A DNA stretch of 44,942 bases from a virus (IMGVR_UViG_3300035180_001002:1-44942), one strand, 5' to 3'. Numbered from the stretch's first letter, positions 8,554 through 44,942 are shown. The notes: generated by a model not told the origin, from the letters alone. Numbers and translations are program-made.

Positions 8554-8990
8554 AGAATGCTCCTATTTGTTATGGTCGACAACTGCCTAGGGAGGACAGA
8601 CCGCATGAGTGAAATGTGAAATGCTAGTGTGGCGCATTTGAGGAGTTCCCCTTTGGAGATTGATTCGAGGAATCGGTGACGATAGCGATTGTGCACAAGA
8701 TAGCAATCATCGCCACCACGAAGAAGTAGATGCGAAGGAACCCTTTCGCCATGACTTTCAAACCATCGGAATTGTGAGGGTTCGAGTGTGAATTTGAGTA
8801 AAGAGTTTTCTTTTTCATGGCTGACAGCTTTTAGTTCAAGCCACCCGGTCTCATGGTCATCACCTACCATAACGTACGACATGTCCGGGATACCTGGGTT
8901 GAGGTTATTCTCAACATGGATGGAGGGCAACCATGTGCCCGCCATCCGCTTAGTGATCTCCTTCCTGAATTCAAGCTCAAGTTTATTCAC
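8529..8990 (-). CDS. VRR-NUC type PD-(D/E)XK nuclease
   Basis: A 153-residue nuclease. GIPDM (P35-D36) and WLELK (E52-L53-K54) form the PD-(D/E)XK core, followed by the EPSQFRW element usual in VRR-NUC proteins. The likely role is branched-DNA resolution or recombination during phage replication. I chose the GTG at 8990, which overlaps the DatZ stop as GTGA and has GCGGAG upstream. An ATG at 9014 would add eight residues that do not look like part of the fold. It sits between the Z-nucleotide genes and the primase, so it belongs to the replication operon. Confidence 0.75.
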   Translation of the reverse strand: MNKLELEFRKEITKRMAGTWLPSIHVENNLNPGIPDMSYVMVGDDHETGWLELKAVSHEKENSLLKFTLEPSQFRWFESHGERVPSHLLLRGGDDCYLVHNRYRHRFLESISKGELLKCATLAFHISLMRSVLPRQLSTITNRSILWTVRTKM

Positions 8991-9541
8991 GGCACCATGT
9001 ACTCCGCAATGCACTGGTTGACATGGGCCACCACCACTGACGGGACGTTATTGATCATGTCCTGGATCTTCAAGTTGAGTTGAGCGCGCAACCCTTTTTC
9101 AGCGTGCTTCGCCGTGGTACCGATACCATACAAGGCGATGAACCGGATGCCGTCAGCCAAATCACACAGCTTGACCAGCATCTTGATGTCGGGTGTGTTC
9201 GTCACGAACCGTCTGAACACGGTGGGCGTCGCATTGGTTTCCAGGTCGTCCATACCCTTGACGAATTGCTTTGTGGGGGTGGGGAGGTCCCCCAACAGCA
9301 CTTCACCGATGTCATGTACCAGGGCGGTGGCCACCGCGATCGAATAGTTACCGAAGTACATCTGCGGACAGGTGACACTGATATAGCCCGCCAGCATCGC
9401 CACGTTCGCAGAATGCTCGGCCAATGTCTGCTGGCGATAGGTGTCGACCAGATGCCAACGCTTGGTGGACTGGAAGCGCTTGATGACTTCAACAGCCTGC
9501 TCACGTGGATTGGTCGTTGCGAAAAGTGAATCGAAGTTCAT
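8987..9541 (-). CDS. datZ: DatZ: HD-domain dATP triphosphohydrolase
   Basis: A 184-residue HD-domain protein. AEHSANVAML supplies the first His, ALVHDIGEVLLGD the HD pair, and KLCDLADGI the distal Asp of an H...HD...D metal site. In Z-genome phages DatZ removes the triphosphate from dATP, so that dATP is purged from the pool while dZTP is spared. The name rests on this fold plus its place directly beside mazZ, purZ and the polymerase. An ATG at 9541 overlaps the mazZ stop as ATGA, with AGGAAG upstream; an in-frame TTG further up is less likely. Confidence 0.88.
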   Translation of the reverse strand: MNFDSLFATTNPREQAVEVIKRFQSTKRWHLVDTYRQQTLAEHSANVAMLAGYISVTCPQMYFGNYSIAVATALVHDIGEVLLGDLPTPTKQFVKGMDDLETNATPTVFRRFVTNTPDIKMLVKLCDLADGIRFIALYGIGTTAKHAEKGLRAQLNLKIQDMINNVPSVVVAHVNQCIAEYMVP

Positions 9542-9831
9542 GGTGTCTTCCTGTGTTGCCAAGTGTTAGTGGATGGGTCGTAATCCCACTCACGGTCCAT
9601 CAGAATGGTGAGCTTCCTGTTGATAGCCTCGTGCAGGTCGATACGCTTCCGGGCGGCGTAGTCCAAGAACAGGATAAACACATCGGCTACCTCATCGGGG
9701 TCGCCATGGGATTCGATGACTTCAGCGAGTTCGCCGTACAACTTGAGGTACATGCTGGCATCGGTGCGATTCGGGAACAGCTTGTCCGCCATTGCCTTGC
9801 ACTGTTCAGCCATTTTATTGATATCAGCCAT
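9538..9831 (-). CDS. mazZ: MazZ: MazG-type (d)NTP pyrophosphohydrolase
   Basis: A 97-residue all-alpha MazG-like protein. GELAEVIE gives the first E-x-x-E pair and DEVADVF the E-x-x-D pair that bind Mg2+ in this superfamily. In Z-genome phages MazZ converts (d)GTP to (d)GMP, which supplies the PurZ substrate and lowers competing nucleotides. It overlaps the end of purZ by 8 bases and the start of datZ by 4, so the three are translated as a coupled unit. The usual Shine-Dalgarno signal is weak, which fits coupling. Assignment is by motif plus context. Confidence 0.88.
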   Translation of the reverse strand: MADINKMAEQCKAMADKLFPNRTDASMYLKLYGELAEVIESHGDPDEVADVFILFLDYAARKRIDLHEAINRKLTILMDREWDYDPSTNTWQHRKTP

Positions 9832-10894
9832 GGCGCACTACCGAGTTGAATTCGTCGATCGTCAAGATCTGGCTGTCGTCGGGGCCGGTGCCGATCCATT
9901 CAACCTTGGGTGGGTTCATCGCCTTGGGGTGGAACCCCTCAATGCGCTTGATCAAAACAACAAGATCCTCGGCCGAGTGCATGTAGTTGGCGAAATTGAG
10001 GAAGATCCGGGTGTTCCAGTACCCGCCGCAGTGCATGAGCGCCGAATCCAGCTGCTGTTCACTGAATGTGAAGATTCGGCGCGGCAGCTTGGTGACGGTG
10101 GTCAATTCAGGCTCGACGCCGATATCCGCCCAGTCGATCTCGATCTGGTCATTGTAACAAGGCCCGGAACTACCGTCACGATTGTTGACGCGAATCGGGA
10201 ACGTGCGGAGCGTGCCGATCACTTCAATGTAAGGAGCCCAACGGAACGGCAGGCCACAATCCGCCGCGATCTGCCAAGGCGTCACATCCCTGGAAGTCGT
10301 ATACGGGTACTGACCATGATACATCGAGAGGCTAAAGCCCTGCGCGCCCTCGATGATGACGTTCCGGGCACCACAGACCGCTTGGTCGTATTCCTCTGGC
10401 GTGACCACGTAACGGGAAAGGCCGGTCCCGCGCAGACGATTCTTGGCCACGTTGGCCGCGTCCGGGCGGCGCCTGATACGCTCAATGAACGCGTCACCGA
10501 CACCTTTTGCCGTGGAACCCATTGCAGTCCTGCCGTCCGACTGTTCTTGTTCAGCGTGGTAATCTTCGACAATCGCGGCATGGGAGTGAATCATCAGGCG
10601 CTTACCGTGCATATACGCACCGTAGCGTAGTAATTCGTCCTGTAAAGTCCGCACGTGGATCGCTGAGCCCGGGCCGAGCATGACATTCTTCACCGTGTCG
10701 CTGATGATCGAAGTCGGCAGCTGTTGGGTCATCATTTCGATGTGCTGCGAATTGTTGATATACGTATGTCCCGCGTTGGTCGCGAACGCACAGATCGCGG
10801 TATCGTAGTTGTTTCGGTTGGCGAGATATCCCGCAATCAGGCCCTTGCCGGTGGACCCATATTGAAAGTCCATGATCATGTCACACTTATGCAT
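9824..10894 (-). CDS. purZ: PurZ: adenylosuccinate synthetase-like N6-succino-2-amino-dAMP synthase
   Basis: A 356-residue PurA homologue, about 75 residues shorter than bacterial PurA. The P-loop reads QYGSTGKG (residues 11-18): the PurA catalytic Asp of GDEGKG is Ser14, the hallmark of PurZ. NAGHT, IIEGAQG, YPYTTS and STGP/GTGPDD-like elements are kept. PurZ joins dGMP and aspartate using a nucleoside triphosphate, giving a precursor that host PurB turns into dZMP, after which host kinases make dZTP. The ATG has GGAG 8 bases upstream. It is followed by mazZ (8-base overlap) and preceded by a small unknown gene and dpoZ. This is the strongest evidence that the phage DNA carries 2-aminoadenine. 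Confidence 0.95.
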   Translation of the reverse strand: MHKCDMIMDFQYGSTGKGLIAGYLANRNNYDTAICAFATNAGHTYINNSQHIEMMTQQLPTSIISDTVKNVMLGPGSAIHVRTLQDELLRYGAYMHGKRLMIHSHAAIVEDYHAEQEQSDGRTAMGSTAKGVGDAFIERIRRRPDAANVAKNRLRGTGLSRYVVTPEEYDQAVCGARNVIIEGAQGFSLSMYHGQYPYTTSRDVTPWQIAADCGLPFRWAPYIEVIGTLRTFPIRVNNRDGSSGPCYNDQIEIDWADIGVEPELTTVTKLPRRIFTFSEQQLDSALMHCGGYWNTRIFLNFANYMHSAEDLVVLIKRIEGFHPKAMNPPKVEWIGTGPDDSQILTIDEFNSVVRHG

Positions 10895-11149: not shown

Positions 11150-13006
11150 TCATTTTGATGCCTCATACCAATTAGGGCCGTAATCAGCAGACGCGGTAAT
11201 TGGTACCCGCATCTTGATCGGGGAAGTGTCAGACATGAAATCGGTGTATCGCTCAAGGATAGCCTTCTTGGTCCGCGGATCGTCTTGGCGAGCCGACACA
11301 CCAATTTCATCGTGACAAGACATCATCAGTCGGGCGTCGAGCTTCTCCTCTCGGATGGCTTCATCGACCATGACCAGTCCATACTTGTGAATGTCGGCGG
11401 CATACGCTTGGTAGAGCAACCCAGCTGCCTTGTGAGCGCCAAAACCGCGAGGAAACCGCAAACGACGACCAATAGCAGTACGAACAAAGTGAGTATCTTT
11501 TGCCACATTTTGAGCCTTCTCCATGAATTGCTTAACGGCAGGTAGTTTACGATGGTAACTGCTGAAAATAACGGATGCCTCATTTCCCGGGAGGTAGACC
11601 ATCTTGCCCCGGGATTCCTTGACTTCATACGGCATGTTCATCATGAAGGCGAGCTTCCCTGGTCCCGCTCCGAATGATAGACCGAGGTTGATCTGCTTCG
11701 TGTTGGGGGCCCCGGCGTACGGGGCGTTGCGGGGAATGCCGGTCATATCTGACACGACTTGATGGTAGTCAAGGTCCGGATCTTCAGCATAAGCCCTGAT
11801 GATGGTCGGGTCGTTCTGAAGATGAGCACCGCATCTGAAATCGACCTGTGAATAGTCCGCGCAGAACCAATCGTACTCGTAATCTGGTAAGAACATCGCA
11901 CGCAAAATCTGCGCATTGTCCTTGTCGCGCTTCGTTATCTGCTGAAGGGCCGGGTCCGAGGACGACAGTCGCCCCGTGATTGTCCCGCGATCCGCGTCAT
12001 TTCGCGTCTGGTTGAACGTGGTGTGAACATAGCCATCGATGTCAGCACTTCCAATAACGTGCCCCTTGACGAAGGTATCTCGGAGCTTGATGACTTTTCG
12101 AAGATCCAGTATTTTCGCGGCGAGGGGATGTGAAATCTCCCGCATCGCATGTTGATCCATGGAAGGACCTTTACCGCCTTTCGTCGGACCCACAATGGTT
12201 CCGTCGATAAGCTGCCACTGGAATTTGTTAAGTTGGACGGGGTTGAAAAACTCCCGGATCTGTTTCGGAGAATTAACATTGATGTTCCTTCCTGAAATGT
12301 CGACGATCTCTCTCGTCAGGTCCAGTTCCCGTTGGTCGAGAACTGGGATAGCGGCGTGGGCGGCTTCGAGATCAACACGTATCCCGCCCCAAGACATGTC
12401 AGCCAGCACGGGGATCAGCCGCGACTCCAAGTCAAGTACCTTGCGCAGGTCTTGCTTATCGATCTGGGGGGCCTGGGCCAAATAGATATCGAAGGCATCC
12501 CGTGCGTCGGAGCTACCGTACGCCGTCACCATGCCGGGCGGCGCAGCGTCGAGGGCGGCGAGTACTGCGCTGTGACTATCCAGGCCCATGGCGGCCATCA
12601 TCCGGTCCAGGTGGTAGTGCTTCTGTGAATCAATACCGTTATATCGACAAACGCTGAACAGGTCGTAAGTCATCCGGTGTTCGTCAATAAGACACTCGGT
12701 CGTCATCGTACAATACCACTGGCATTGCCGGGGATCAATGCCGAGAGCCCGTGTGCATTGCAGGTCGAACTGGGCGAAATGGGCGACTACCGTGCGTCCA
12801 GGTAGGGTATCCTTCAGCCAGTCGATCACCTTCGGGTTCGTGCGCAAATCCCAATACCCTTGACCACCGGCCGTCGCCACCGCCACGCCCAGGACCCTGA
12901 AGTCGGGATTCCAGTAGTCCAGGCCGGAGGTCTCGTAATCTAAAGCAATTACCCCGTCATGTACGGGGATGTTCGGGAAATGACCAAGAGTATTGAAATC
13001 TATCAT
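11150..13006 (-). CDS. dpoZ: DpoZ: PolA-family DNA polymerase with 3'-5' exonuclease
   Basis: A 618-residue family A polymerase with an N-terminal DnaQ-like exonuclease: D23-x-E25 (ALDYETS), AHFAQFD ending at D81, and D167/D170. Palm motif A is DYSQVDFR (D384), motif B is centred on K437 (TKQINLGLSFG), and motif C is CHDE (H565-D566-E567). There is no 5'-nuclease domain. Beside purZ this is the DpoZ type that prefers dZTP over dATP opposite T. Against E. coli Pol I the usual SQIE reads SQVD, and the motif B Arg four residues before Lys is Ala433. The ATG has no clear ribosome site and follows two hairpins closely. Confidence 0.9.
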   Translation of the reverse strand: MIDFNTLGHFPNIPVHDGVIALDYETSGLDYWNPDFRVLGVAVATAGGQGYWDLRTNPKVIDWLKDTLPGRTVVAHFAQFDLQCTRALGIDPRQCQWYCTMTTECLIDEHRMTYDLFSVCRYNGIDSQKHYHLDRMMAAMGLDSHSAVLAALDAAPPGMVTAYGSSDARDAFDIYLAQAPQIDKQDLRKVLDLESRLIPVLADMSWGGIRVDLEAAHAAIPVLDQRELDLTREIVDISGRNINVNSPKQIREFFNPVQLNKFQWQLIDGTIVGPTKGGKGPSMDQHAMREISHPLAAKILDLRKVIKLRDTFVKGHVIGSADIDGYVHTTFNQTRNDADRGTITGRLSSSDPALQQITKRDKDNAQILRAMFLPDYEYDWFCADYSQVDFRCGAHLQNDPTIIRAYAEDPDLDYHQVVSDMTGIPRNAPYAGAPNTKQINLGLSFGAGPGKLAFMMNMPYEVKESRGKMVYLPGNEASVIFSSYHRKLPAVKQFMEKAQNVAKDTHFVRTAIGRRLRFPRGFGAHKAAGLLYQAYAADIHKYGLVMVDEAIREEKLDARLMMSCHDEIGVSARQDDPRTKKAILERYTDFMSDTSPIKMRVPITASADYGPNWYEASK

Positions 13007-14114: not shown

Positions 14115-14702
14115 TCAGGCCTTGACGATCGACGCCCGGGTGAATGGGGTCACGCTGAAGATGTCGTCAGGGATATCGACGCCTTCAACGATCTGGCGGC
14201 GGAAGAGCGCCTTCAACGACGATGCGTTGTACGTATCCTTGATCATATCGGAGTAGCCGCAATCGCGGAGCCATTGCATCGCGGCGTCCTTCTGACCTTT
14301 GCGGGTCGATGCGTAAATGTCCGGCGCGGTCTGGACCCGGCCGATGCCGTTGAAGGTGGCTGTCTTGACCTCCAAGCTCTCCATCAACTCGGGGATCTTC
14401 TTGAGCCGCAGATCGTCGAGGGGGATGCGGACATCGGCAGCCTGTGCCTTGATTTGCAGAGCCTTGGCCTGGAGTTCCTTCATGCGGATACACAATTGAC
14501 GCAGGGTCTCCATGTCGCCGGTCATGGGTTCGCTGTCCTGCCGGTCGTCGACCATCATTTCTTGCGGGATCGCGCCCAAGAACAGAATGGCGGTCTCCAG
14601 GACGTCGGCCAATTCGAACATTTCTGCGTCGCGCAGTTCTTCGATACCGGCAGCGAGTGCCATCAGCAAGGACTCGTATCGGGTCATCGTCAAATTAGAC
14701 AT
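14115..14702 (-). CDS. Gp33-like helical phage protein of unknown role
   Basis: A 195-residue protein. The ATG at 14702 (MSNLTMTRYE) has GGAGAG upstream and lies 17 bases after the previous stop; an upstream in-frame ATG would overlap that gene by 65 bases. The centre is a long helix (LRQLCIRMKELQAKALQIKAQAADVRIPLDDLRLKKIPELMESL). The C-terminus, with GIGRVQTAPDIYASTRKGQKD and WLRDCGY, recalls phage Gp33-type proteins. Position among replication genes suggests a role in DNA metabolism, which is not shown. Confidence 0.65.
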   Translation of the reverse strand: MSNLTMTRYESLLMALAAGIEELRDAEMFELADVLETAILFLGAIPQEMMVDDRQDSEPMTGDMETLRQLCIRMKELQAKALQIKAQAADVRIPLDDLRLKKIPELMESLEVKTATFNGIGRVQTAPDIYASTRKGQKDAAMQWLRDCGYSDMIKDTYNASSLKALFRRQIVEGVDIPDDIFSVTPFTRASIVKA

Positions 14703-14718
14703 GCTACTATCTCTCCTA

Positions 14719-15087
14719 TCAAACGTTGAGGGGAACCGGAATCTCATGATCAAACCCGGTGATGCGATACCGGTTCTCTTCACGGCGCCACACGAGGAAT
14801 CGGGGCACCTTGCCTGCGCGCCCCATGATCCAGCCGACCATCAAAATGGCCATGGGCTGGCCAGTGGTGATGATGTAATCCGCCATTTCATCGTACTCAT
14901 GCACGAATTTGACGACATCCGTCTTCCACTGATCTTGCACGCTCGACCGGCCATAGACCGGCAAATCGTGCGTGGTGATGAAATGCAGGTCTCCGAATCC
15001 CAGAGCCTTCGAGTAATCCATCGGAATCGGGCCGATGTCGCCACGCAACATCTGCTCTTTGATGACCCACACCTTTGGCTTGTTCAT
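14719..15087 (-). CDS. Unknown protein (122 aa), first gene after a strong promoter
   Basis: A 122-residue protein (MNKPKVWVIKEQM...) that I do not recognise. It has an aromatic, mixed alpha/beta character, including VVKFVHEYDEMADYIITTGQPMAIL and GRAGKVPRFLVWRREENRYR, and no membrane segment. TAGGAT lies upstream of the ATG, and a sigma70-type promoter ends 33 bases upstream. It is therefore likely the first gene of the transcript that continues to the 195-residue protein. Confidence 0.65.
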   Translation of the reverse strand: MNKPKVWVIKEQMLRGDIGPIPMDYSKALGFGDLHFITTHDLPVYGRSSVQDQWKTDVVKFVHEYDEMADYIITTGQPMAILMVGWIMGRAGKVPRFLVWRREENRYRITGFDHEIPVPLNV

Positions 15088-15156: not shown

Positions 15157-16935
15157 TCAGGACTTTTCACCTAAAAGCAGGTCATCCATCGACACCCCCG
15201 CCGCGATGCGGGTCATGATGTACTCTTCGACCGACATCTTGTACTTGATGGATTCCAAGATCACCGAATCGACCGACTTCTCGCCGACGATATCGACGAC
15301 GGTTACCGTATTCTTCTGGCCAATCCGATGCGCTCGGTCTTCAGACTGTGCCCGTTCAATGTAAGCATCAGTCCCCGAATAGTAGACCATCACATCATTC
15401 TCACCCGAAATCAGGGTGATGCCCAGACCCGCCGCCACCGGGTTGCCGATGAAGAACCGCATCTTCGGATCAGTGCAATATCGATCCTCGATGTCGGACC
15501 GGGCATTCATTTCGGTCTTGCCGTAATAACACTCGACTGACTTAGGGCCGTATTTCTCGGCCAGTCGATCGCGGATGTACTCGATCTCATGGACGAAGCT
15601 GGTCCAGATGATGAACTTACTTCCACGGAAGTTGTCCTCGATCATGTCGAATAGGGCGTCCATCTTGGGATTAACCTTCAGCGGCACTAGGGTGGTTTCG
15701 ACCCACTCGACCTCAACCCCGTCGATCTCCTTGTACTTCAATTCGCCTTGAGGCAACCAGCCCCCCACGATCTGGCGGCAGCGCAGGCGCTTCTCAAGTG
15801 AATTCGTGACCTTGATCAGCGGGGCGGTCGGGTCCTTTATCGCGCCTTTGACGACAACCCGGATGAGCCTGCGCTGTTCTGGTGTCAACTCGACGAAGAT
15901 CTCCTTCATCATCTTGTCGGGTAAATTCAAGACATCCTTGCCGACTTCCACGGTGTAAGGGATGATCATGTTCATCAGTTCATCGACGTGTTTGTAGCCG
16001 ATGATCTGTTTATCCTCGTACCCTCCCATTTCGAGGTACCGGGTCCTGAATGCCCAGTAGTCCCCCATGCCGATGATGTTCGGGTCGAGGAATTCATACT
16101 GGGACCACAGGTCCTCGATGCCTAAGGCGATCGGGGTGCCATTCAATATCAGACGCCGATGAGAACACGCCCCGATGGTGATGACACGCTCGGTGCGCTT
16201 GGCCTTCGGATTCTTGATGCGGCTGCTCTCGTCAACGATGGTGAGGATGCGCTTGCCTTTCGAGAAGAACCCACAGACCGAATCATAAAGCCCCTCGGAT
16301 ACGCCTAGACCCTCGACCGATACGGCCAGCACTTGAAGGTGGTCCCGGGGAGTGGCATTATAGAATTCCGTGATCCACGGAGCTTTGGTCCCATGGATTT
16401 TGAGGTCATATCCGCCCGTCGCGTACTTCTCGAATTCCTTAGCCCATGTACGGCGCAGGGTCGATGGAGCGATGATGCAAACAGCATCAATCTCCCCCGC
16501 CTTCCAGGCAGCGAACATCATGTGAATGGCGGTGTACGTCTTGCCCGTTCCCATCTTAGCGAACCAAGCAGATGCTGTCAACCCCCACGACAGGTCAAGC
16601 ATCTTCTCCTGGTGCTTCATCGGCGTGTACTTGATCTTCGACTCGGTGAAATCGTAGACATGGCCGGGAAAAGGGATGTAGACCGGCCCCGATGTCAGAC
16701 GCTCACTCTCCCGGATCGCATTCATTGCTGCCGGGTTGAAAGCGAATTCGTACCGATGCTTGATCTCGTCGATGTGAAGTATGTTCCCCTTGACGAGCGG
16801 GACCTTCCAGGTCTTGGATTTCGGGTCAAACCGACGCGATGGGAACCCCCGCATCGCGTCGGCCAGATGGAAGGGAGATTTCATCGAGAGACGTCGGGTC
16901 TTCTCGTCGTAGGTGACTTCAATGGTGTTGTTCAT
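15157..16935 (-). CDS. SNF2/DEAD-type superfamily 2 DNA helicase
   Basis: A 592-residue SF2 ATPase. An upstream YTPMKHQEKML element precedes Walker A MGTGKT (128-133), motif Ia-like IIAPSTLRRTW, motif II DESS (235-238, in place of DEAH), GTPIA, and near the end SEDRAHRIGQKNTV, the arginine-finger motif VI of SNF2-like proteins. Such phage enzymes are thought to act in replication fork remodelling or recombination. The ATG follows the previous stop by 14 bases with only a weak ribosome site. Confidence 0.9.
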   Translation of the reverse strand: MNNTIEVTYDEKTRRLSMKSPFHLADAMRGFPSRRFDPKSKTWKVPLVKGNILHIDEIKHRYEFAFNPAAMNAIRESERLTSGPVYIPFPGHVYDFTESKIKYTPMKHQEKMLDLSWGLTASAWFAKMGTGKTYTAIHMMFAAWKAGEIDAVCIIAPSTLRRTWAKEFEKYATGGYDLKIHGTKAPWITEFYNATPRDHLQVLAVSVEGLGVSEGLYDSVCGFFSKGKRILTIVDESSRIKNPKAKRTERVITIGACSHRRLILNGTPIALGIEDLWSQYEFLDPNIIGMGDYWAFRTRYLEMGGYEDKQIIGYKHVDELMNMIIPYTVEVGKDVLNLPDKMMKEIFVELTPEQRRLIRVVVKGAIKDPTAPLIKVTNSLEKRLRCRQIVGGWLPQGELKYKEIDGVEVEWVETTLVPLKVNPKMDALFDMIEDNFRGSKFIIWTSFVHEIEYIRDRLAEKYGPKSVECYYGKTEMNARSDIEDRYCTDPKMRFFIGNPVAAGLGITLISGENDVMVYYSGTDAYIERAQSEDRAHRIGQKNTVTVVDIVGEKSVDSVILESIKYKMSVEEYIMTRIAAGVSMDDLLLGEKS

Positions 16936-18770: not shown

Positions 18771-19622
18771 TTACTTGGTCTTACCGGCGGCCTTGCCGGT
18801 GCCCTTGGTCGGCGGCACGGGAGGAGCCAGCTTGGTCGTCGAACTGATCGCCGCGACGGCAGCAGCTTCCTTGCCCTTCTCGGCGGCGGCTTCCTGGGCC
18901 TTGACCTTGGCTTCCTCCTTGGCCTTGACATCGGCAGCCTTCTTGGCTTCCTTCTCGGCCTTGATCTTGGCTTCCTCCTTGGCCTTGACATCGGCAGCCT
19001 TCTTGGCTTCCTTCTCGGCCTTGATCCGGGCCTTCTCGGCAGCGGCGGCTTCAGCGGTGGCGTAGCCGTTGGCGTCACGGATCTCGATCACCTTATCGAT
19101 GGTCAGATCGCCTTTCTTGATCGCGCCACGCATGCGATTGCGGAGGTTCATGGACTGCTGGCCGATGTTCAAATGTGCATATTTGTTCTCGGTCAGGCCC
19201 AGTGCGGCGAGACCGAGAGCCACGACATTCGCCACCGGCACGGCATCCAGGGCCATCGCCAGTTCATCATTGCAGCGCAGTTGGCCGGTCATAGACTTGA
19301 CATAGGCGCCAGCCTTGACGCGTTCGGCCAGCGACAACATCGAACCGACGTAGTTGCGGCCAGCGGCCTTCAGTTCTTCGGCACGGGCATCGCGTTCGGC
19401 CTTCTTGGCGGCGGCGGCTTCGGCACGGGCCTTGGCAGCAGTGGCGCGCTCTTCAGCAGACACCTTGGCGGCGGCTTCGTGTTCGGCCTTCTTCTTGGCC
19501 TTCTCGACAGCCGCTTGTTCGGCGGCGACGATCTTGTCGTTCAGGGCCTTGGCCTTGGCTTCGGCGTCGGCCTTCTTGGCGGCGCCATCGGTGGCGTCGG
19601 TGGTGGTGGCGGACTTGCTCAT
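18771..19622 (-). CDS. Ala/Lys-rich protein with paralogous GQQSMNLRN module (283 aa)
   Basis: A 283-residue protein from the ATG at 19622 (AAGGA upstream). Long Ala/Lys/Glu helices flank a compact module (about 92-182) that includes LRCNDELAMALDAVP and HLNIGQQSMNLRNRMRGAIKKGDL. The same module occurs in the protein encoded at 22803-23453. C-terminally a 20-residue Lys/Ala/Glu unit is repeated twice, matching a 60-base DNA repeat. It sits behind its own promoter with a palindromic operator. The charge pattern suggests a nucleic-acid-binding or histone-like protein made early, which is inference. Confidence 0.7.
   Translation of the reverse strand: MSKSATTTDATDGAAKKADAEAKAKALNDKIVAAEQAAVEKAKKKAEHEAAAKVSAEERATAAKARAEAAAAKKAERDARAEELKAAGRNYVGSMLSLAERVKAGAYVKSMTGQLRCNDELAMALDAVPVANVVALGLAALGLTENKYAHLNIGQQSMNLRNRMRGAIKKGDLTIDKVIEIRDANGYATAEAAAAEKARIKAEKEAKKAADVKAKEEAKIKAEKEAKKAADVKAKEEAKVKAQEAAAEKGKEAAAVAAISSTTKLAPPVPPTKGTGKAAGKTK
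18901..19020 (-). repeat. Two 60-base direct repeats inside the 283-aa gene
   Basis: 18901-18960 and 18961-19020 differ at one base. A partial third copy starts at 19021. Each encodes 20 residues of the Lys/Ala/Glu helix (KAEKEAKKAADVKAKEEAK). Confidence 0.9.
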
Positions 19623-19661
19623 GATGAATTCCTTGGAAGTGGTTGATGAAAACAAAGCGGG

Positions 19662-19703
19662 ATCGAGAATCTCGATTTTACTGCGGGGTCAGACGTGTGT
19701 CAA
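19662..19703 (-). promoter_or_regulatory. Promoter TTGACA-N17-TAAAAT with palindromic operator at the start site
   Basis: On the minus strand AAGGGGGG precedes TTGACA (19698-19703), then 17 bases, then TAAAAT (19675-19680). The perfect palindrome ATCGAGA-T-TCTCGAT (19662-19676) covers the expected start site. The stop codon of the upstream gene is the TGA inside the -35 box. It drives the 283-residue gene. Confidence 0.8.
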
Positions 19704-20137
19704 CCCCCCTTCAGTTCCTCGCCCGTGACCTTGGTCTTGCCCGCTTCAATCGCAGCCTTGACCAGTGCCCGGTACGCCCAATATTCCTCTTCGGTCGCCA
19801 GCGAATAGGTGACACGTAAGCCGCGTTCCTTGGCGGTCTTGTTCATCCTCTCGATGGACTTTTCGGGAGTGCTCAGTTGCTGGATAGCGGTAGCGATCCA
19901 GGAGGGCTGATCAGCGGAGATTATCTTCACTCGGATTTGCTTGAATGATGGCATCTTCTTGACTTTCGTAGGGGGGCTATAAGAGAACATGTCCTTGTCG
20001 GACACTTTACACTTCCAATCATGCCCGCATTTGATACATGACGCGATCCACCCGGTCGATGATTTCGATAACCAATGCCTCCAGTGCAGCTTGCACTTCG
20101 GGCACGTGCGATCGAGCTTGACCGGGCGCTGGGACAT
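19700..20137 (-). CDS. Zinc-ribbon protein of unknown role (145 aa)
   Basis: A 145-residue protein. The N-terminus has a four-Cys ribbon (CPKC near residue 12 and CIKCGHDWKC near 34-43). The rest is a basic alpha/beta domain with KIISADQPSWIATAIQQL and a helical end. Its last codons double as the -35 region of the next promoter. The ATG has only a weak GGTAAG site and lies 3 bases after the lipoprotein gene, so coupling is likely. A nucleic-acid-binding role is possible. Confidence 0.65.
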   Translation of the reverse strand: MSQRPVKLDRTCPKCKLHWRHWLSKSSTGWIASCIKCGHDWKCKVSDKDMFSYSPPTKVKKMPSFKQIRVKIISADQPSWIATAIQQLSTPEKSIERMNKTAKERGLRVTYSLATEEEYWAYRALVKAAIEAGKTKVTGEELKGG

Positions 20138-20140
20138 GGC

Positions 20141-20308
20141 TTACCGCCGACATTCAGCGGTGAAGCAGCCGTGATGTCCCTTAGGCGGGGGGTCTTCACC
20201 CCCTCCACATCCGGTGAGCCAGAACAGCAGACCCAAGAGCATGATCACCAGGATGATGTCGACCGGGTGAAGTGGGTCCTTCTTCGGCAGCAGGGGGTCG
20301 TGCTTCAT
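20141..20308 (-). CDS. Small lipoprotein with lipobox (55 aa)
   Basis: A 55-residue frame starting MKHDPLLPKKDPLHP. A hydrophobic helix (VDIILVIMLLGLLFWL) ends in the lipobox LTGC, and the short mature part is Gly/Pro/His-rich (GGGEDPPPKGHHG) with two more cysteines. The ATG overlaps the upstream stop as ATGA. Size and proline content recall o-spanins (Rz1) and phage exclusion lipoproteins such as Cor or Llp. Its place in the early arm, away from the lysis genes, favours exclusion slightly. This is inference. Confidence 0.65.
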   Translation of the reverse strand: MKHDPLLPKKDPLHPVDIILVIMLLGLLFWLTGCGGGEDPPPKGHHGCFTAECRR

Positions 20309-20664
20309 TTCGGCCCCAGTACCGCACGGGCGGCGTCCCAAGCCTTGGGCTTACGTTCATTGTAATCCGCCTCGAGGTCGAGCAAGTCCTTAGGGAAGAC
20401 GCGGGTCACCGAGCACGGCCTGCGCTGCCGGACACGTAGGCATTCGGCCTTCATGTCCTTCAGGATCACCAGTTCACGCAGGGCATCCTCAGCATGCTTC
20501 ACACGCTGAGCCAAGCCTTCCAACAGTTCAGCGGCACGCGCTATGAATGGGTCACCATCTTGCTGGTTCTCAGTCCAGAGATCTTCGGGGGCCGGGCCGG
20601 ACTCGACCATTTCCCGTAACACCTTCGCAAGCGCTACAGGCTCATCGGCACGTAAGTAATTCAT
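20305..20664 (-). CDS. Unknown helical protein (119 aa)
   Basis: A 119-residue, mostly helical protein (MNYLRADEPVALAKVLREMVESG...) with an Arg-rich middle (RVRQRRPCSVTR) and an acidic helix (FPKDLLDLEADYNERK). GGAG precedes the ATG and overlaps the preceding gene end. The stop overlaps the lipoprotein start as ATGA. No family recognised. Confidence 0.65.
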   Translation of the reverse strand: MNYLRADEPVALAKVLREMVESGPAPEDLWTENQQDGDPFIARAAELLEGLAQRVKHAEDALRELVILKDMKAECLRVRQRRPCSVTRVFPKDLLDLEADYNERKPKAWDAARAVLGPK

Positions 20665-20665
20665 C

Positions 20666-20953
20666 TCACTGCTCCATTTCGCGGATGATCAGGGACGCGG
20701 CGGCGGCTTCGATGTCGTTATCGACAAAGATCCGGCCATGGCCGTCGAGGGTATTCTGGTACGGCAGGCGGGCATAGTCCACAGACTTCTGGCCCCCGAA
20801 GCGCACCGTATGCAGTTTGCGCTGGCCGAAGAGTTCACCCCCCTTCTCGACGGTGACTTCACCGTCCTCCCACACAGAATAGACCATTTGGTTCTTATGG
20901 GCTTCGGGCTTGTGCAGCGCCAGCAGGGCGATCGTTGCTTCTTCGCGGTTCAT
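20666..20953 (-). CDS. Unknown small protein (95 aa)
   Basis: A 95-residue protein (MNREEATIALLALHKPEAHK...) with a beta-rich centre (YSVWEDGEVTVEKGGELFGQRK) and a helical acidic end (EAAAASLIIREMEQ). A leader with GGAG follows an intercistronic hairpin. No family recognised. Confidence 0.65.
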   Translation of the reverse strand: MNREEATIALLALHKPEAHKNQMVYSVWEDGEVTVEKGGELFGQRKLHTVRFGGQKSVDYARLPYQNTLDGHGRIFVDNDIEAAAASLIIREMEQ

Positions 20954-20972
20954 GTTGGATCTCCAAGTGAAT

Positions 20973-20988
20973 GGGGGCGAAATCCCCC
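20973..20988 (-). promoter_or_regulatory. Intercistronic hairpin cassette, copy 1
   Basis: GGGGG-N6-CCCCC follows the stop of the upstream gene and precedes a CATTCACTTGGAGATCC-type leader and ATG. It is one of five similar stop-hairpin-leader units between 20954 and 22800. Confidence 0.65.
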
Positions 20989-20998
20989 AGGGTTGGAA

Positions 20999-21268
20999 TC
21001 AAGTGGGCGGGTGATTCAAAAAGCGCAGGACAAATCCGGTCTCTGTGATGCACCGACCGTGTTTCAGGATCATCAACATATTGGTGTACACGTTGTGCGA
21101 CATGCCGGTCGGCATCAGCATGGCGTAGAAGTGGCCGGAGGGAATGCCATCGGGGCCGGCGGCTTCGATCATTTCGAGCATGATCTTGGCGGCTGTGCGT
21201 GTTGCCTCGATGAGCTTGACACGGCGCTCGATCGCCTCGGCGGTCTTCAAACTGGGATTCTGGTCCAT
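20999..21268 (-). CDS. Small phage protein (89 aa)
   Basis: An 89-residue protein whose centre, AGPDGIPSGHFYAMLMPTGMSHNVYTNML, looks like a small helix-turn-helix or dimerisation domain seen in short phage proteins of unknown role. The leader with GGAGACC precedes the ATG. It has hairpin cassettes on both sides. Confidence 0.65.
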   Translation of the reverse strand: MDQNPSLKTAEAIERRVKLIEATRTAAKIMLEMIEAAGPDGIPSGHFYAMLMPTGMSHNVYTNMLMILKHGRCITETGFVLRFLNHPPT

Positions 21269-21286
21269 GGGGGTCTCCAGGTGAAT

Positions 21287-21302
21287 GGGGGCTCGCGCCC
21301 CC
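21287..21302 (-). promoter_or_regulatory. Intercistronic hairpin cassette, copy 2 (GNRA-type loop)
   Basis: On the minus strand GGGGGC-GCGA-GCCCCC is a 6-base stem capped by a GNRA tetraloop. It is followed by ATTCACCTGGAGACCCCC and the ATG of the 89-residue gene. Confidence 0.7.
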
Positions 21303-21310
21303 GGGTTCGA

Positions 21311-21556
21311 TCAGTCGGCTTCCACTTCGGGGGCGGGCTCGGGTGGCACTTCATTGATGACACCAATGACGAGCTTGATGTCGAGGTCAGCGCCCCGGTC
21401 GCCCGGATCCGACGACAGGACAGCAGCGTCCTTGAACCCGCCGTAATGGCGCTCGCAAGGCTGCAACCTGGCAGCGACAGTCGTCAATACTTGAAGCTCG
21501 GCCGCGCTCAATTCGACGACTGAAGAATGGTAACCGGAAGTGATGACTACGTACAT
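21311..21556 (-). CDS. Unknown small protein (81 aa)
   Basis: An 81-residue protein (MYVVITSGYHSSVVELSAAELQVLTTVAARLQ...) with an acidic, proline-rich tail (VPPEPAPEVEAD). It is the first gene after an operator-bearing promoter (21601-21642) and has TAGGAGATC before the ATG. The N-terminal strand-helix-strand pattern is compact. No family recognised. Confidence 0.65.
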   Translation of the reverse strand: MYVVITSGYHSSVVELSAAELQVLTTVAARLQPCERHYGGFKDAAVLSSDPGDRGADLDIKLVIGVINEVPPEPAPEVEAD

Positions 21557-21600
21557 GGGGATCTCCTAAGGGGTTAACTATCGAACTATCGTGCTCTCTC

Positions 21601-21648
21601 ATCGAGAATCTCGATTGTACCACGCGGGGGCTGGTCTGTCCAGCCCCC
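21601..21648 (-). promoter_or_regulatory. Promoter TGGACA-N17-TACAAT with the same operator, plus 9-bp inverted repeat
   Basis: On the minus strand AAGGGGGC precedes TGGACA (21637-21642), then 17 bases, then TACAAT (21614-21619). The palindrome ATCGAGATTCTCGAT (21601-21615) is identical to that at 19662-19676. GGGGGCTGG-N5-CCAGCCCCC (21626-21648) spans the -35 box and spacer, and could be a terminator for the upstream gene or a second operator. Confidence 0.78.
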
Positions 21649-21656
21649 TTCCATGG

Positions 21657-21848
21657 TCAGTACTCGCCGTTTAGGGCGCGGCGCATATCAGGGGTCGGTC
21701 GGCCCTTGAAATTGAAGGCCGTCGGCAGCAAGCACAGGACATGGCCCTTGTGTTCAATGCACTTCATCCGGTCGCTCAGAGCGACGAGGAATTGGGCGCG
21801 TGCGATGACCTGGAGCTTGAAGCTCTTGTAACGAATGGCGTTGCTCAC
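21657..21848 (-). CDS. Unknown small basic protein (63 aa)
   Basis: A 63-residue protein from GTG at 21848 (VSNAIRYKSFKLQVIARAQF...). GGAG/TAGG lies in the tail of the upstream gene and the start is 5 bases after its stop. It is basic, with a central Cys pair in KCIEHKGHVLC. No family recognised. Confidence 0.6.
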   Translation of the reverse strand: MSNAIRYKSFKLQVIARAQFLVALSDRMKCIEHKGHVLCLLPTAFNFKGRPTPDMRRALNGEY

Positions 21849-21853
21849 GCTAC

Positions 21854-22105
21854 CTACTCCATGGTGTCTCCGAATCTCTTCAGGCAGGCGGCGGCCAGCC
21901 CTTCATCGGTGAATCCGCCTCGCGCCTCCTCCAGGGTCAGGCCCATGCCGTTGATGACCATGATTCGCAGCGCCTCGACCCGATCTGCGATCGAATTGGT
22001 CTCGTCCCTGACGAATTCGAAGATCGAATCGAAGGCATTGCCGTCTGACCACGCACGGATCGCTTCAAGGGTCACGGGCTTGATGTACTTCAGGTGGTTG
22101 CTCAT
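21854..22105 (-). CDS. Unknown helical protein (83 aa)
   Basis: An 83-residue, mostly helical protein (MSNHLKYIKPVTLEAIRAWSDG...) with FEFVRDETNSIADRVEALRIMVING. It has the GGAGACC leader and a hairpin upstream. No family recognised. Confidence 0.65.
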   Translation of the reverse strand: MSNHLKYIKPVTLEAIRAWSDGNAFDSIFEFVRDETNSIADRVEALRIMVINGMGLTLEEARGGFTDEGLAAACLKRFGDTME

Positions 22106-22123
22106 GGGGGTCTCCAGGTGAAT

Positions 22124-22136
22124 GCTGCTCAGCAGC
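22124..22136 (-). promoter_or_regulatory. Intercistronic hairpin cassette, copy 3 (stop codon in the loop)
   Basis: GCTGC-TGA-GCAGC on the minus strand. The TGA loop is the stop codon of the 95-residue gene. ATTCACCTGGAGACCCCC and the next ATG follow. Confidence 0.65.
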
Positions 22137-22416
22137 GATTGATGTGGCCATCGGTGGCGTCGACGCTAAATTCGGCCCCGCTGGCCAGCACGACGATCAC
22201 GCCATTCGCGTCGGCGTCCAGGCATTCCACCGTGTCGGTCGGCTGAATGACTCCCACCTTCAACAGCGTGCGCTCCAACTCTTCGTCGGCTTCATCGACT
22301 GCTGACGTGTCCGGGTTGCCCGATTTGTGCGCCAGCACGATGTCCAGCCACTTCGTGACTGCGGCGGCGATGAATGGCGCATCGATTGCGGCGCGATGCT
22401 CAGGGGATTGGTTCAC
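22129..22416 (-). CDS. Unknown acidic protein (95 aa), GTG start
   Basis: A 95-residue protein from GTG at 22416 (VNQSPEHRAAIDAPFIAAAV...), acidic (DEADEELE). The frame is open upstream for another 115 codons into 22761, so a 210-residue fusion is possible. I prefer a separate gene because the join contains a promoter, a GC hairpin and the GGAGACCACC leader that elsewhere precede true starts. No family recognised. Confidence 0.6.
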   Translation of the reverse strand: MNQSPEHRAAIDAPFIAAAVTKWLDIVLAHKSGNPDTSAVDEADEELERTLLKVGVIQPTDTVECLDADANGVIVVLASGAEFSVDATDGHINRC

Positions 22417-22761
22417 GGTGGTCTCCAGGTGAATGGGGGCTCGCGCCCCGGGGTGGGGGGAATTTCCATTGGAACACAACCTCGCTGGGTTGTCAATCCC
22501 CCTTAGCGGCTGTGTTCCAGCGGAGGGGGCTTGCGCCCGAAGGTAGAGGTGGGAGAAGATGGCAGCATCGTCGCTGCTGAGGGTGAGAGTTCGGTAGCTC
22601 CCGTCTGCGTAGTTGAGGGCCACGACGATGCCATCCGGGTAGACATAGAAGGTTTGGCGGACGGTAAGCCCTCGGACTTCGTCGTAATAGGAATTGGCAG
22701 CCTCGGTTACTTCGGTGATGCGGCCGGCGTCGATGTCGGCGAGGAGTCGGCTAGCGTTCAT
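22417..22761 (-). CDS. Unknown protein, open frame lacking its expected stop
   Basis: The frame starts MNASRLLADIDAGRITEVTEAAN from an ATG with GGAGACC upstream. Recognisable protein-like sequence runs to about residue 90 (DDAAIFSHLYLRAQ). Beyond that the frame translates a promoter and hairpin before joining the 95-residue gene in frame (210 residues in all). Stop-codon loss, a one-base error or a true fusion are all possible. A -1 or +1 change before 22497 would allow termination at the TGA of the -35 box, as happens at 19700. Confidence 0.55.
22436..22449 (-). promoter_or_regulatory. Intercistronic hairpin cassette, copy 4
   Basis: GGGGC-GCGA-GCCCC on the minus strand (GNRA-type loop) followed by CATTCACCTGGAGACCACC and the GTG at 22416. 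It lies within an otherwise open frame. Confidence 0.65.
22468..22496 (-). promoter_or_regulatory. Promoter TTGACA-N17-TCCAAT with inverted repeat in the spacer
   Basis: On the minus strand AAGGGGGA precedes TTGACA (22491-22496), then 17 bases, then TCCAAT (22468-22473). ACAACC-N6-GGTTGT (22476-22493) covers the spacer and the -35 end. The sequence after the -10 box (GGAAATTC) resembles that at 23509. Confidence 0.7.
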
Positions 22762-22777
22762 GGTGGTCTCCGGTGAA

Positions 22778-22794
22778 GGGGCGGCGTGCGCCCC
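22778..22794 (-). promoter_or_regulatory. Intercistronic hairpin cassette, copy 5
   Basis: GGGGCG-N5-CGCCCC on the minus strand, between the stop of the 216-residue gene (22803) and the GGAGACCACC leader of the next gene (22761). Confidence 0.65.
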
Positions 22795-22802
22795 GAGGTT
22801 GA

Positions 22803-23453
22803 TTAGGCTGCTTCGCGTTCGGTGGTGACTGCGGCACGGGCTGCGAGGATCTCGCTGTACTGCAGGAAGCCGTTCTTCACGGCGCCCCGGGCCTTGTTCC
22901 GCAGGTTCATCGACTGCTGGCCAGGGTTCAGATGGCGGTACGGGTTGCTCTCCAGCTTCATCGCCAGGATCAGGGTGGCCACGACCTGTTCACGGGGCAG
23001 GCCGTCCAGGGTCAGGGCCATCGCGTCGCCGCACATCGGGTTGCCGTTCTTGCCCTTGGCGTAGCGCTTGGCGGCGCTGCGAAGGACGAGCATCGGGCCG
23101 GTGTACCCGCCTGCCTTGGGGATGGCCACGGCGTCCAGGGATTCGGCGACGTAGGCCTTGGCCGCGTCGCCCGTCAGCCCCAGGGCTGCGGCGTCTTCGT
23201 GGAGTGCCTTCTCGTAGGCGGCGCGCTCTGCGGCACGCTTGGCGGCGATCTCTTCGGGGGTCTTTGTGGCGGGGGCCGGGGCTGGGGCTGCCGGGGCTTC
23301 GGCTGCCGGGGCTTCGGCTGCCGCCTTCTTGGCGGCGAGGTCTGCGTGCAGGGCCTTCTTGCTGGCGGCCTTGCGGGCCTTCTCGGCTGCGGCATTGGCT
23401 GCGACGGCTTCGGCTGTCTTGTTCAGGGCACGGGGGGCGGGGCGGTTGGCCAT
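22803..23453 (-). CDS. Paralogue with GQQSMNLRN module, first gene of leftward arm (216 aa)
   Basis: A 216-residue protein from the ATG at 23453 with GGAGACCACC upstream. The N-terminal half is Ala/Lys/Pro-rich and low complexity. Residues about 120-205 hold MLVLRSAAKR, CGDAMALTLDGLP, NPYRHLNPGQQSMNLRN and RGAVKNGFL, which align with the protein encoded at 18771-19622. It is the first leftward gene after the divergent control region, so it is probably the earliest expressed. The shared module is a good candidate for DNA binding; I know no named family for it. Confidence 0.7.
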   Translation of the reverse strand: MANRPAPRALNKTAEAVAANAAAEKARKAASKKALHADLAAKKAAAEAPAAEAPAAPAPAPATKTPEEIAAKRAAERAAYEKALHEDAAALGLTGDAAKAYVAESLDAVAIPKAGGYTGPMLVLRSAAKRYAKGKNGNPMCGDAMALTLDGLPREQVVATLILAMKLESNPYRHLNPGQQSMNLRNKARGAVKNGFLQYSEILAARAAVTTEREAA

Positions 23454-23474
23454 GGTGGTCTCCAGGGGGGTTGA

Positions 23475-23508: not shown

Positions 23509-23553
23509 ATTGGACACCCGGACGAACACGACGACAACCCCTAAGGTTAGGGG
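23509..23553 (-). promoter_or_regulatory. Early leftward promoter TTGTCG-N17-TCCAAT with abutting palindrome
   Basis: On the minus strand TTGTCG (23532-23537), 17 bases and TCCAAT (23509-23514). CCCCTAA-GG-TTAGGGG (23538-23553) abuts the -35 box and supplies the G run seen at the other leftward promoters. It is weaker by consensus than the others but in the right place to start the arm. Confidence 0.6.
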
Positions 23554-24236
23554 GGTGGAGCCATGTGGCGCGGACGCAACAGCGGGGACCCCCCTCCAGG
23601 GCCCAGGGGGTGTGGGCCTTAGGCCAGGCCTGAGCGCTCCGGGGGCATTAGAGCGCATCCCCCTCCAGGAGGGGGTGGAGTGGCCCCTCCTGGGTCGAGG
23701 AGGGGGGTCTGTGCCCGGTGGTGATATACCCCTCCACCCCCCCTCCTATCTCTCTGATCACAGAGGGGAGGGAGGGGGGGTATGCCCCGGGAGGGATCAG
23801 AGACGTGGAGCACCGTAGACGGGGGGGCGCTCCAGGTAGGAGGGGGGGTGGAGGGGGGGTCTGGGCTGGAGGGGGTATCCACCCGTTTCCTGGGCGTCAG
23901 ATGGGGGTCCAAGGGCCGGGGGCGGGGTCCCCCGCTGTTCTTCGGGTCGAATCGGTGGCGGGTCGGCCCTGGGCCGAGGGGCGGGGGACGACGCGGGCAT
24001 TGGGGGTATTCGGCCTGCCGGCCAGGAGGCGGGGGGGCGGCTGGGCCAGCGGGGCGGGGGCATTCGCGTCCGATATGGGGGGAGGAGCAAGGCGCTAGCG
24101 CTCAGAAAAACCGCAACCCGGTCACTTGTCCTTTCACTATTTTCGAATTTTTGTTACACTTTGTTACAAAGTCCATGTTCCATCGTCCTCGCCCCTTTTC
24201 CCACGCTCCGGAGTCCTCTAACTCAGTGAAGCTATC
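23554..24236. other. Non-coding divergent control region, G-rich and palindromic
   Basis: About 680 bases between the two transcription arms with no convincing gene; the open frames here are low-complexity. The plus strand has many runs of 5-7 G (for example 23767-23781 and 23821-23875). CCCCTCC/GGAGGGG units form inverted repeats such as CCCCCTCC-A-GGAGGGGG (23659-23675) and CCCCTCC-N8-GGAGGGG (23684-23705). GGGGGTGGAG recurs near 23552, 23671 and 23843. G-quadruplex formation is likely on one strand. A replication origin or a packaging site could lie here; neither is proven. Confidence 0.7.
24150..24172. repeat. TTTGTTACA direct repeats with overlapping inverted repeat
   Basis: TTTGTTACA occurs at 24150-24158 and 24160-24168. 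ACTTTG-TTA-CAAAGT (24158-24172) is an inverted repeat overlapping the second copy. It forms an AT-rich island in the GC-rich divergent region, 65 bases before the late promoter. Confidence 0.75.
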
Positions 24237-43707: not shown

Positions 43708-44820
43708 ATGCCAGATTCAGTTCAACCGTTCGACCTGAACCAAATCCGGGGGAGTACCCAAAACCTCCGGATGGACCTGGAGAAGAAGCAACTTGATCTG
43801 AACCAGATCAAGCAGCAGTACTCCGAGCAGAATGCTATGGTCAAGGATCTCCAGCAGATCGACCCGGCCCTGGATTTCTTGGACAAGCTTACCAAAGCCC
43901 AGGAAGTGGCGATGGCTCACGGTAGGCTCGAAGATGCCACCAAGATCACGAATTCGATTGGTATGCTGGCCTATCGCAAAGAGTTGACCGATTCACGTAA
44001 AGCACTGTCCGAGAAGCAACGCATCGAGGGCGAGGCCAAAGAGCAAGATTCCGTGTTCAAGGCTGTCGGCGTTCCTCAAGATGAAGAAGGGTGGAACAGC
44101 GCCCGGATGATGGCGTTGTCGATGCACCCGAATCTTCCTGAGGAGACGCGCAAGATGCTCCAGCAGCCATGGTCCCCCGGGCTGAAGCAATTTCTCGAAA
44201 ACAGGTCCATGGACCCGGCCAAGAGGGCTGAACTCGACCAGAAGAGTGTTGAATCTGATGCACGGGTTCGCGCTGATCAGGCATTGGAGCAGCAGCGCCT
44301 TGCTACTGCTGAACGCACAGCTAAGCTGTTGCCTTATGAAGTTGGTGAGAAGCGTGCGGCGACCTACGCCCACTCGGCTGCCGCCGATCTTTCGGCCACC
44401 CGTGCCCGCATTGAAACGGAACGGCTGGCGGCTGAAGCCAAGAATGGCGGCAAGAACGTCCCGAAGCTGATCGAACCAACCAAAGAAGATCGGGTTGATA
44501 CTGAAGATGTCCTGAAGCAAAAATTCCCGGAAGGCTTGGGTGGCTCGGACATGAAGGCGGCGCGGGTATATCTCGCTGCTGAAGCCAAGAAGATCCAGAC
44601 CCAGGACAGGTCCGATTTCGGATCGGCCCTGCGCAAAGCACTCGTTAAGAATGATGGCCTGGTCTATGTGAAGAGCAAGTCGATGTTCGGTAAGCCGACG
44701 TACGCCTTCAAAGAAATGCCGACTGATTTGCCTGCGGGGTTCGTCTTCAAGGGCCGGGTCTCGCCCAAGGGTAATCGGGTCTTTGAGAACAAAGACGGTC
44801 AGATGTTGGAGGATCAGTAA
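43708..44820 (+). CDS. Internal / DNA-ejection protein 2 (370 aa)
   Basis: A 370-residue, highly charged, mostly coiled-coil protein with several heptad regions (KKQLDLNQIKQQY, ATRARIETERLAAEAKNGG). The C-terminus is basic. Position between ejection protein 1 and the 1212-residue protein makes a channel component likely. Its stop overlaps the next start as TAATG at both the left and right copies of the genome end. Confidence 0.7.
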   Translation: MPDSVQPFDLNQIRGSTQNLRMDLEKKQLDLNQIKQQYSEQNAMVKDLQQIDPALDFLDKLTKAQEVAMAHGRLEDATKITNSIGMLAYRKELTDSRKALSEKQRIEGEAKEQDSVFKAVGVPQDEEGWNSARMMALSMHPNLPEETRKMLQQPWSPGLKQFLENRSMDPAKRAELDQKSVESDARVRADQALEQQRLATAERTAKLLPYEVGEKRAATYAHSAAADLSATRARIETERLAAEAKNGGKNVPKLIEPTKEDRVDTEDVLKQKFPEGLGGSDMKAARVYLAAEAKKIQTQDRSDFGSALRKALVKNDGLVYVKSKSMFGKPTYAFKEMPTDLPAGFVFKGRVSPKGNRVFENKDGQMLEDQ

Positions 44821-44942
44821 TGCCTCTCGTCCCATTCGACGGCCAGCCGATCGACACCAGTACGGCTGTTGCTCCGCCCCCGCCTCCCCCGCCTCCCCCG
44901 CCTCCCCCGACTCCCGGGGGTCCCCCCGCCCCGGTGTCAGCC
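44784..44942. repeat. Right copy of genome-end overlap
   Basis: The same sequence as 1-168 with one 9-base proline-codon unit fewer. It shows that the window wraps around. Confidence 0.95.
44820..44942 (+). CDS. 5' part of large ejection protein, second copy (partial)
   Basis: The first 41 codons of the gene at 37-3675, repeated because the ends overlap. Here the poly-proline run is 12 residues instead of 15. It is not a separate gene. Confidence 0.95.
   Translation, partial: MPLVPFDGQPIDTSTAVAPPPPPPPPPPPPTPGGPPAPVSA

Follow-up and report, generated by a model that had tools for sequence, protein, structure and literature searches.

In this study the window was a whole virus record of IMG/VR (IMGVR_UViG_3300035180_001002; 44,942 bases) that encodes two proteins, the A-type P0001 and the B-type P0002, with one domain in common (hereafter the module). 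The best explanation of this pair, to which we give a probability of roughly 50%, is that it represents a so far undescribed family of accessory proteins, basic and helical, which bind nucleic acid and go with the PurZ/DatZ/DpoZ replication cassette of phages with 2-aminoadenine (Z) genomes. The strongest evidence is that which ties the module family to the 2-aminoadenine gene set. The family is not described in the open-access papers on Z-phage biology PMC12884076, PMC8342488, PMC8599892 and PMC8515928, and the Z-genome pathway has so far been described through nucleotide enzymes and a polymerase.

The co-occurrence of the module with PurZ among phages is close to exclusive. A tblastn search of 50,697 phage records with the family consensus as query (E up to 1) gave 58 matches, 57 of them real, the match in Proteus phage RP7 (E 0.2) being a chance one. 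All 57 records lie within the best 60 PurZ records, the other three being S-2L and two entries of Ochrobactrum phage OH. The module phages comprise the Vibrio phiVC8/VP2/VP5 and K300 groups, Alteromonas ZP6, the Acinetobacter SH-Ab 15497 group, the Salmonella PMBT28/Klebsiella/Pseudomonas PSA28 group, Providencia Kokobel2, Stenotrophomonas BUCT555 and Burkholderia Bm1, with phiVC8, ZP6, SH-Ab 15497, PMBT28 and Bm1 among the cultured phages; the 57 include numerous near-identical isolates and represent about eight groups. The module is absent from a further 143 PurZ-like records, mostly of the PurZ0 type found in Arthrobacter, Microbacterium and Gordonia phages, and from six named non-Z phages with related polymerases. 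Set against the Z gene set of PurZ, DatZ, MazZ or DUF550, and DpoZ (PMC12884076, PMC8342488), the module co-occurs about 1:1 in Z phages other than the PurZ0 type that have a DpoZ-like polymerase; unlike the enzymes of that set, it shows no sign of being an enzyme of nucleotide metabolism.

The same pattern is seen in uncultured virus contigs, where a search with P0002 alone gave no match and the family alignment was required. PurZ is present in 42 of the 48 module-bearing IMG/VR records, and the six without it are fragments: two end inside the polymerase gene (G010 and G035), one inside the primase gene (G011) and one just beyond the helicase, within 600 bp of it (G005), while the last two (G008 and G039) carry the module at or close to an end of the contig. 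When contigs were picked by PurZ alone, the module was found in 35 of 37; one of the two without it (G040) ends at the helicase, short of the expected position of the module gene, and the other is taken up below. As a control, contigs were picked by the superfamily 2 (SF2) helicase, and the module was present in 7/7 that carry PurZ vs 2/27 that do not (Fisher p 7e-6). Both of these PurZ-negative contigs are cut inside the DpoZ-like polymerase gene, just short of the expected purZ position.

The two module sequences of the window are 46% identical over 98 residues (45/98 identities, E 6e-23), which bears out an earlier note, made from the DNA sequence, that had reported a shared module of about 85 residues. 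The Ala/Lys-rich surroundings that it described are equally real: both proteins contain 27–28% Ala, their isoelectric points (pI) are 9.6 and 9.7, and the C-terminal tail of P0001 is a 60-bp tandem repeat at the DNA level. A family profile recovers both proteins (E 3e-16 and 5e-15), and both contain the family core pattern D..VA..L followed by YxHLNxG(Q/M)Q(R/S)MN(L)(G/R)N..R. The motif given in the earlier note is general only in part: its Cys and its SMNLRN form are mostly confined to the lineage of the window, the usual form in the family being RMNLGN. Near-invariant residues (P0002 numbering) are D143, Y172, L175, N176, G178, M182, N183, N186 and R189, and a single helix gathers G178, M182 and R189 together with N183 and N186. 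Within this helix the core Arg shifts by exactly one turn, with R181/G185 in 120 sequences vs S181/R185 in 23, the latter mostly from a single clade but with at least one case apart from it; such a swap is expected if that face of the helix must present an Arg. Across the family the module is basic (median pI 9.5; 92% net positive). The fold of the module is predicted confidently, the AlphaFold2 model of P0002 residues 108–216 having a mean predicted local distance difference test score of 87 (95–98 in the core) and helices at model residues 37–41, 47–57, 70–86 and 92–108. Because of the basic charge, the invariant helix with its Arg swap and the fusions to nucleases described below, taken together, we favour a nucleic-acid-binding domain.

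Table 1. Module proteins, cassette genes and candidate control elements in the window.
Feature	Coordinates	Strand	Remarks
A-type module protein P0001, 283 residues	18771..19622	-	Lys/Ala-rich N-terminal part, module, Lys/Ala/Glu-rich tandem-repeat tail; orthologues present in relatives of the window
Module of the A-type protein, residues 91–184	19071..19352	-	
B-type module protein P0002, 216 residues	22803..23453	-	Ala/Lys/Pro-rich N-terminal part, then module
Module of the B-type protein	22830..23105	-	predicted with AlphaFold2
PurZ (2-amino-adenylosuccinate synthetase)	9824..10894	-	phrog_1211, E 3e-69
DatZ-like dATP triphosphohydrolase	8987..9562	-	phrog_7076, E 2e-24
DpoZ-like family A DNA polymerase	11150..13006	-	36% identical to phiVC8 polymerase
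phiVC8 p33 homologue	14115..14783	-	nearly Z-phage-exclusive gene; relative in Ochrobactrum phage OH annotated Gam-like
SF2/SNF2-like helicase	15157..16935	-	in other Z phages often directly downstream of a module gene
Sigma-70-like promoter TTGACA-17-TAAAAT of the A-type gene	19675..19703	-	11/12
Operator-like palindrome ATCGAGAATCTCGAT	19662..19676	.	abuts the -10 hexamer of the A-type promoter
Second promoter TGGACA-17-TACAAT with palindrome ATCGAGAATCTCGAT	21601..21642	-	before small gene 21556..21311

By its gene content the window is itself a Z-genome phage (Table 1). Its PurZ has the motif QYGSTGKG, with the diagnostic Ser at the position of PurA Asp13, and a dATP-removing DatZ-like enzyme and a DpoZ-like polymerase are encoded beside purZ; a primase/helicase and the SF2 helicase complete the set from which this assignment follows. 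The ends of the record (1–168 and 44785–44942) repeat one another save for one 9-bp unit, CCCCCGCCT (5.3 vs 4.3 copies). Thus, although classed as linear, the record is probably a complete genome with a terminally redundant or circular map. The intergenic DNA that separates the small terminase gene from the B-type gene (23540–24236) holds many G- and C-runs and inverted repeats and is a candidate packaging or origin region.

Searches for a known domain that would give the module a function were negative. Scans of the window proteins with Pfam, NCBIfam and PADLOC gave zero credible matches, as the TolA and major-capsid-like matches fall on low-complexity segments; the NCBIfam TolA match (29.6 bits vs a cut-off of 213) covers Lys/Ala repeats only, and a TolA-like identity was rejected. 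A sequence search of the Protein Data Bank (PDB) with the window proteins gave no match. The sole library match is to two PHROGs v4 families of unknown function, phrog_8878 and phrog_8941, which the P0001 core matches at E 4e-6 and 2e-4 and of which P0002 weakly matches the latter (0.0075); these weak matches cover part of the module only, and the open-access Z-phage literature does not state a tie of either family to 2-aminoadenine. A match to a domain of settled function, which would have spoken against a new family, was therefore absent from the Pfam, NCBIfam, PHROGs and PDB searches. Against known DNA-binding folds such as SAP, winged-helix and HTH the best VIA row was the FAN1–DNA complex (Z 4.8, root-mean-square deviation 10.4 over 90 residues), and this FAN1/SAP resemblance is too weak for use. 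In a viral structure library the good matches were to uncharacterised phage proteins only, including proteins of ZP6 and JSF9. The profile search and structure prediction that the earlier note had proposed thus led to a family that among phages is almost confined to those with Z genomes and to a confidently predicted fold with no significant PDB match; 2-aminoadenine itself entered that note only through a proposed binding assay that was to include Z-containing DNA.

The earlier note had taken the pair for a domain duplicated within one genome. The duplication is real, but it is not confined to one genome: many contigs with enough flanking sequence carry at least two module copies, and most of the window's relatives retain both an A-type and a B-type copy. 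In the module tree, whose deeper branching is poorly resolved, the copies of the window's lineage fall into a single clade with strong support (22 rows, 100/98), inside which A- and B-type groups can be recognised. Since both types recur across the relatives, the duplication is old in this lineage, and a recent duplication is contradicted by the tree. The N-terminal parts of the family vary and include Lys/Ala tails, segments that we read as KOW/SH3-like in copies resembling phiVC8 p46, and, in the PMBT28 group, C2H2- and zinc-ribbon-like segments fused to the module (weak Pfam scores). Gene neighbourhoods vary as well. In about 17 contigs the SF2 helicase gene has a module copy directly upstream, on its own strand; in the Acinetobacter/Salmonella-type group the module follows datZ by about 0.8–3 kb, and in one case (L084) a stand-alone module of 82 residues lies 47 bp before purZ.

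Outside phages, a few Alphaproteobacteria (Brevundimonas, Phenylobacterium, Sphingomonas and Caulobacter; L099–L103 and L112) encode proteins in which a shortened module core at the N-terminus is fused to a predicted BisI-like nuclease domain. This domain resembles NhoI and Eco15I (VIA Z 17.6 to 13.3, the highest for NhoI; Foldseek 3e-14; PADLOC mREase_II 3e-54). The fusions have the phage-family core YxHLNPGQQRMNxGNxLR in common (profile E about 1e-9 to 1e-13), but of the module as it occurs in phages they keep just the C-terminal half, and the phage proteins are without a nuclease; a PvuII/NhoI-like PD-(D/E)XK domain had no match in the window proteins and is carried only by these rare bacterial relatives. 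The bacterial form is rare, as it was present in none of 288 further alphaproteobacterial genomes. Some BisI-like proteins carry an N-terminal domain of unknown function (PMC8281217), which we infer to be the module core. In one test the extra C-terminal domain of Eco15I failed to bind DNA (PMC11347163), and a fused domain is therefore not proof of binding. Other bacterial proteins with the core include one whose C-terminus resembles GIY-YIG (L106) and several of about 210 residues, mostly from Rhizobiales (L104, L105, L108, L110 and L111), in which a conserved uncharacterised N-terminal domain precedes a core at the C-end. In Chromatocurvus halotolerans (L096) a gene for a KOW-like segment plus module is part of an integrated element. 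This element also carries an integrase, a large gene that looks restriction-modification-like, and a primase similar to that of phiVC8.

The two genes differ in their promoters. Sigma-70-like promoters scoring 10–11/12 occur just upstream of the A-type orthologues in about 9 of 11 phages of the lineage, and these strong, recurrent promoters point to early transcription of the A-type gene by host polymerase. The B-type gene is by position the first gene of a leftward block, but a scan upstream of it found no sigma-70-like promoter, and one is present in only 2/10 of its orthologues; the statement that both are first genes behind their own promoters therefore holds for the A-type gene only. A repeated leader of about CACCTGGAGACCNCCATG (20947–23466, minus strand) stands before several small early genes, the B-type gene among them. 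The palindrome ATCGAGAATCTCGAT is a candidate operator: its only exact copies in the window, at 19662–19676 and 21601–21615, each abut the -10 hexamer of a sigma-70-like promoter on the minus strand. A family-wide operator was rejected, as exact copies are absent from all other phage sequences fetched.

Taken as an accessory protein of Z replication, the A-type gene would be transcribed at an early stage by the host RNA polymerase, from a strong promoter of its own, and the conserved domain, consisting of a helix, the loop Y-x-H-L-N-x-G and a helix with an Arg/Asn/Gly face, would bind DNA. The variable appendages (Lys/Ala tails, KOW/SH3-like, C2H2 or zinc ribbon) may tether the module either to DNA or to partner proteins, for example the SNF2-like helicase that is often its neighbour, and the outcome would be that Z-substituted phage DNA is replicated, transcribed or shielded. 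Several findings weigh against this interpretation. PurZ occurs without the module in the PurZ0 phages, S-2L, Ochrobactrum phage OH and one contig (G052), a real exception with PurZ and a family A polymerase; therefore, the module is not required for Z-DNA as such. Conversely, the integrated element of C. halotolerans has no PurZ within 10 kb of the module gene. In ZP6 the full-length family member is acidic (pI 4.6), and comparison of the module fold with the PDB gave nothing significant (best Foldseek E 2.6) and no match that would give a function. Finally, the phiVC8 p33 (Gam-like) family shows the same restriction to Z phages, with 60 of the 50,697 records.

This last finding bears most directly on the serious rival, joint inheritance of one cassette, as at least two uncharacterised genes follow PurZ. 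The module would then belong to an ordinary phage DNA-binding protein, such as a transcription or replication factor, whose tie to Z reflects shared ancestry and which neither senses nor serves 2-aminoadenine. Since the p33 family is equally exclusive, the pattern could mark such a cassette; the lack of the module in PurZ0 phages and S-2L, which have other polymerases, and the keeping of copies within lineages fit as well. However, other cassette genes have spread far beyond Z phages (helicase relatives in 1473 phage records, polymerase in 954 and phiVC8 p32 in 506) and the module has not, and it is found in differing neighbourhoods, near the helicase or near purZ/datZ, on contigs that differ widely in size (up to 89 kb). 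We consider shared ancestry a possible but doubtful account. A more specific proposal, that the module reads 2-aminoadenine DNA by binding Z–T pairs, perhaps by way of the additional amino group in the minor groove, would make it the Z phages' own DNA-binding domain; a few bacteria would then have linked its core to a BisI-like nuclease as a means of cutting phage DNA that is modified. This proposal we regard as unlikely.

Host takeover, as proposed in the earlier note, found no specific support, although a duplicated, uncharacterised and basic domain with probable early expression is supported; a genome-organising role, also proposed there, is compatible with the evidence and possible, the basic charge being the feature observed that would suit a phage nucleoid or histone-like protein. 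Early in infection, a counter-defence or takeover protein would bind or mask phage DNA or inhibit a nuclease or polymerase of the host. The strong early-type promoter would suit this, as would the annotation of the Ochrobactrum phage OH relative of the neighbouring p33 gene as a Gam-like host-nuclease inhibitor and the core shared with N-terminal domains of modification-dependent nucleases. Conservation of the module, however, tracks Z replication genes and not a defence-related context, and host-takeover genes generally vary more from host to host, which makes this role quite improbable. Slightly less probable again is a role away from DNA, in which the protein would assist DpoZ or the SNF2-like helicase as a partner or processivity factor, or serve dZTP metabolism as a cofactor. 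The module does adjoin the SF2 helicase or purZ/datZ and is absent from S-2L, a PrimPol user, but Ochrobactrum phage OH and contig G052 lack it despite having PurZ and a family A polymerase, and the fusion of a basic domain to zinc-finger- and KOW-like segments suggests nucleic acid.

It is on the nucleic-acid-binding accessory family, therefore, that the biological interest centres. To judge from its sequence associations, the module family probably helps Z phages to handle their unusual DNA. How an adenine-free genome is transcribed, organised and packaged becomes a testable question with a family that tracks PurZ about 1:1, and a core common to modification-dependent nucleases and to cultured Z phages adds to this testability. 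The module family also provides a second sequence marker for locating Z phages, and it raises the question of whether Z-DNA needs its own binding protein.

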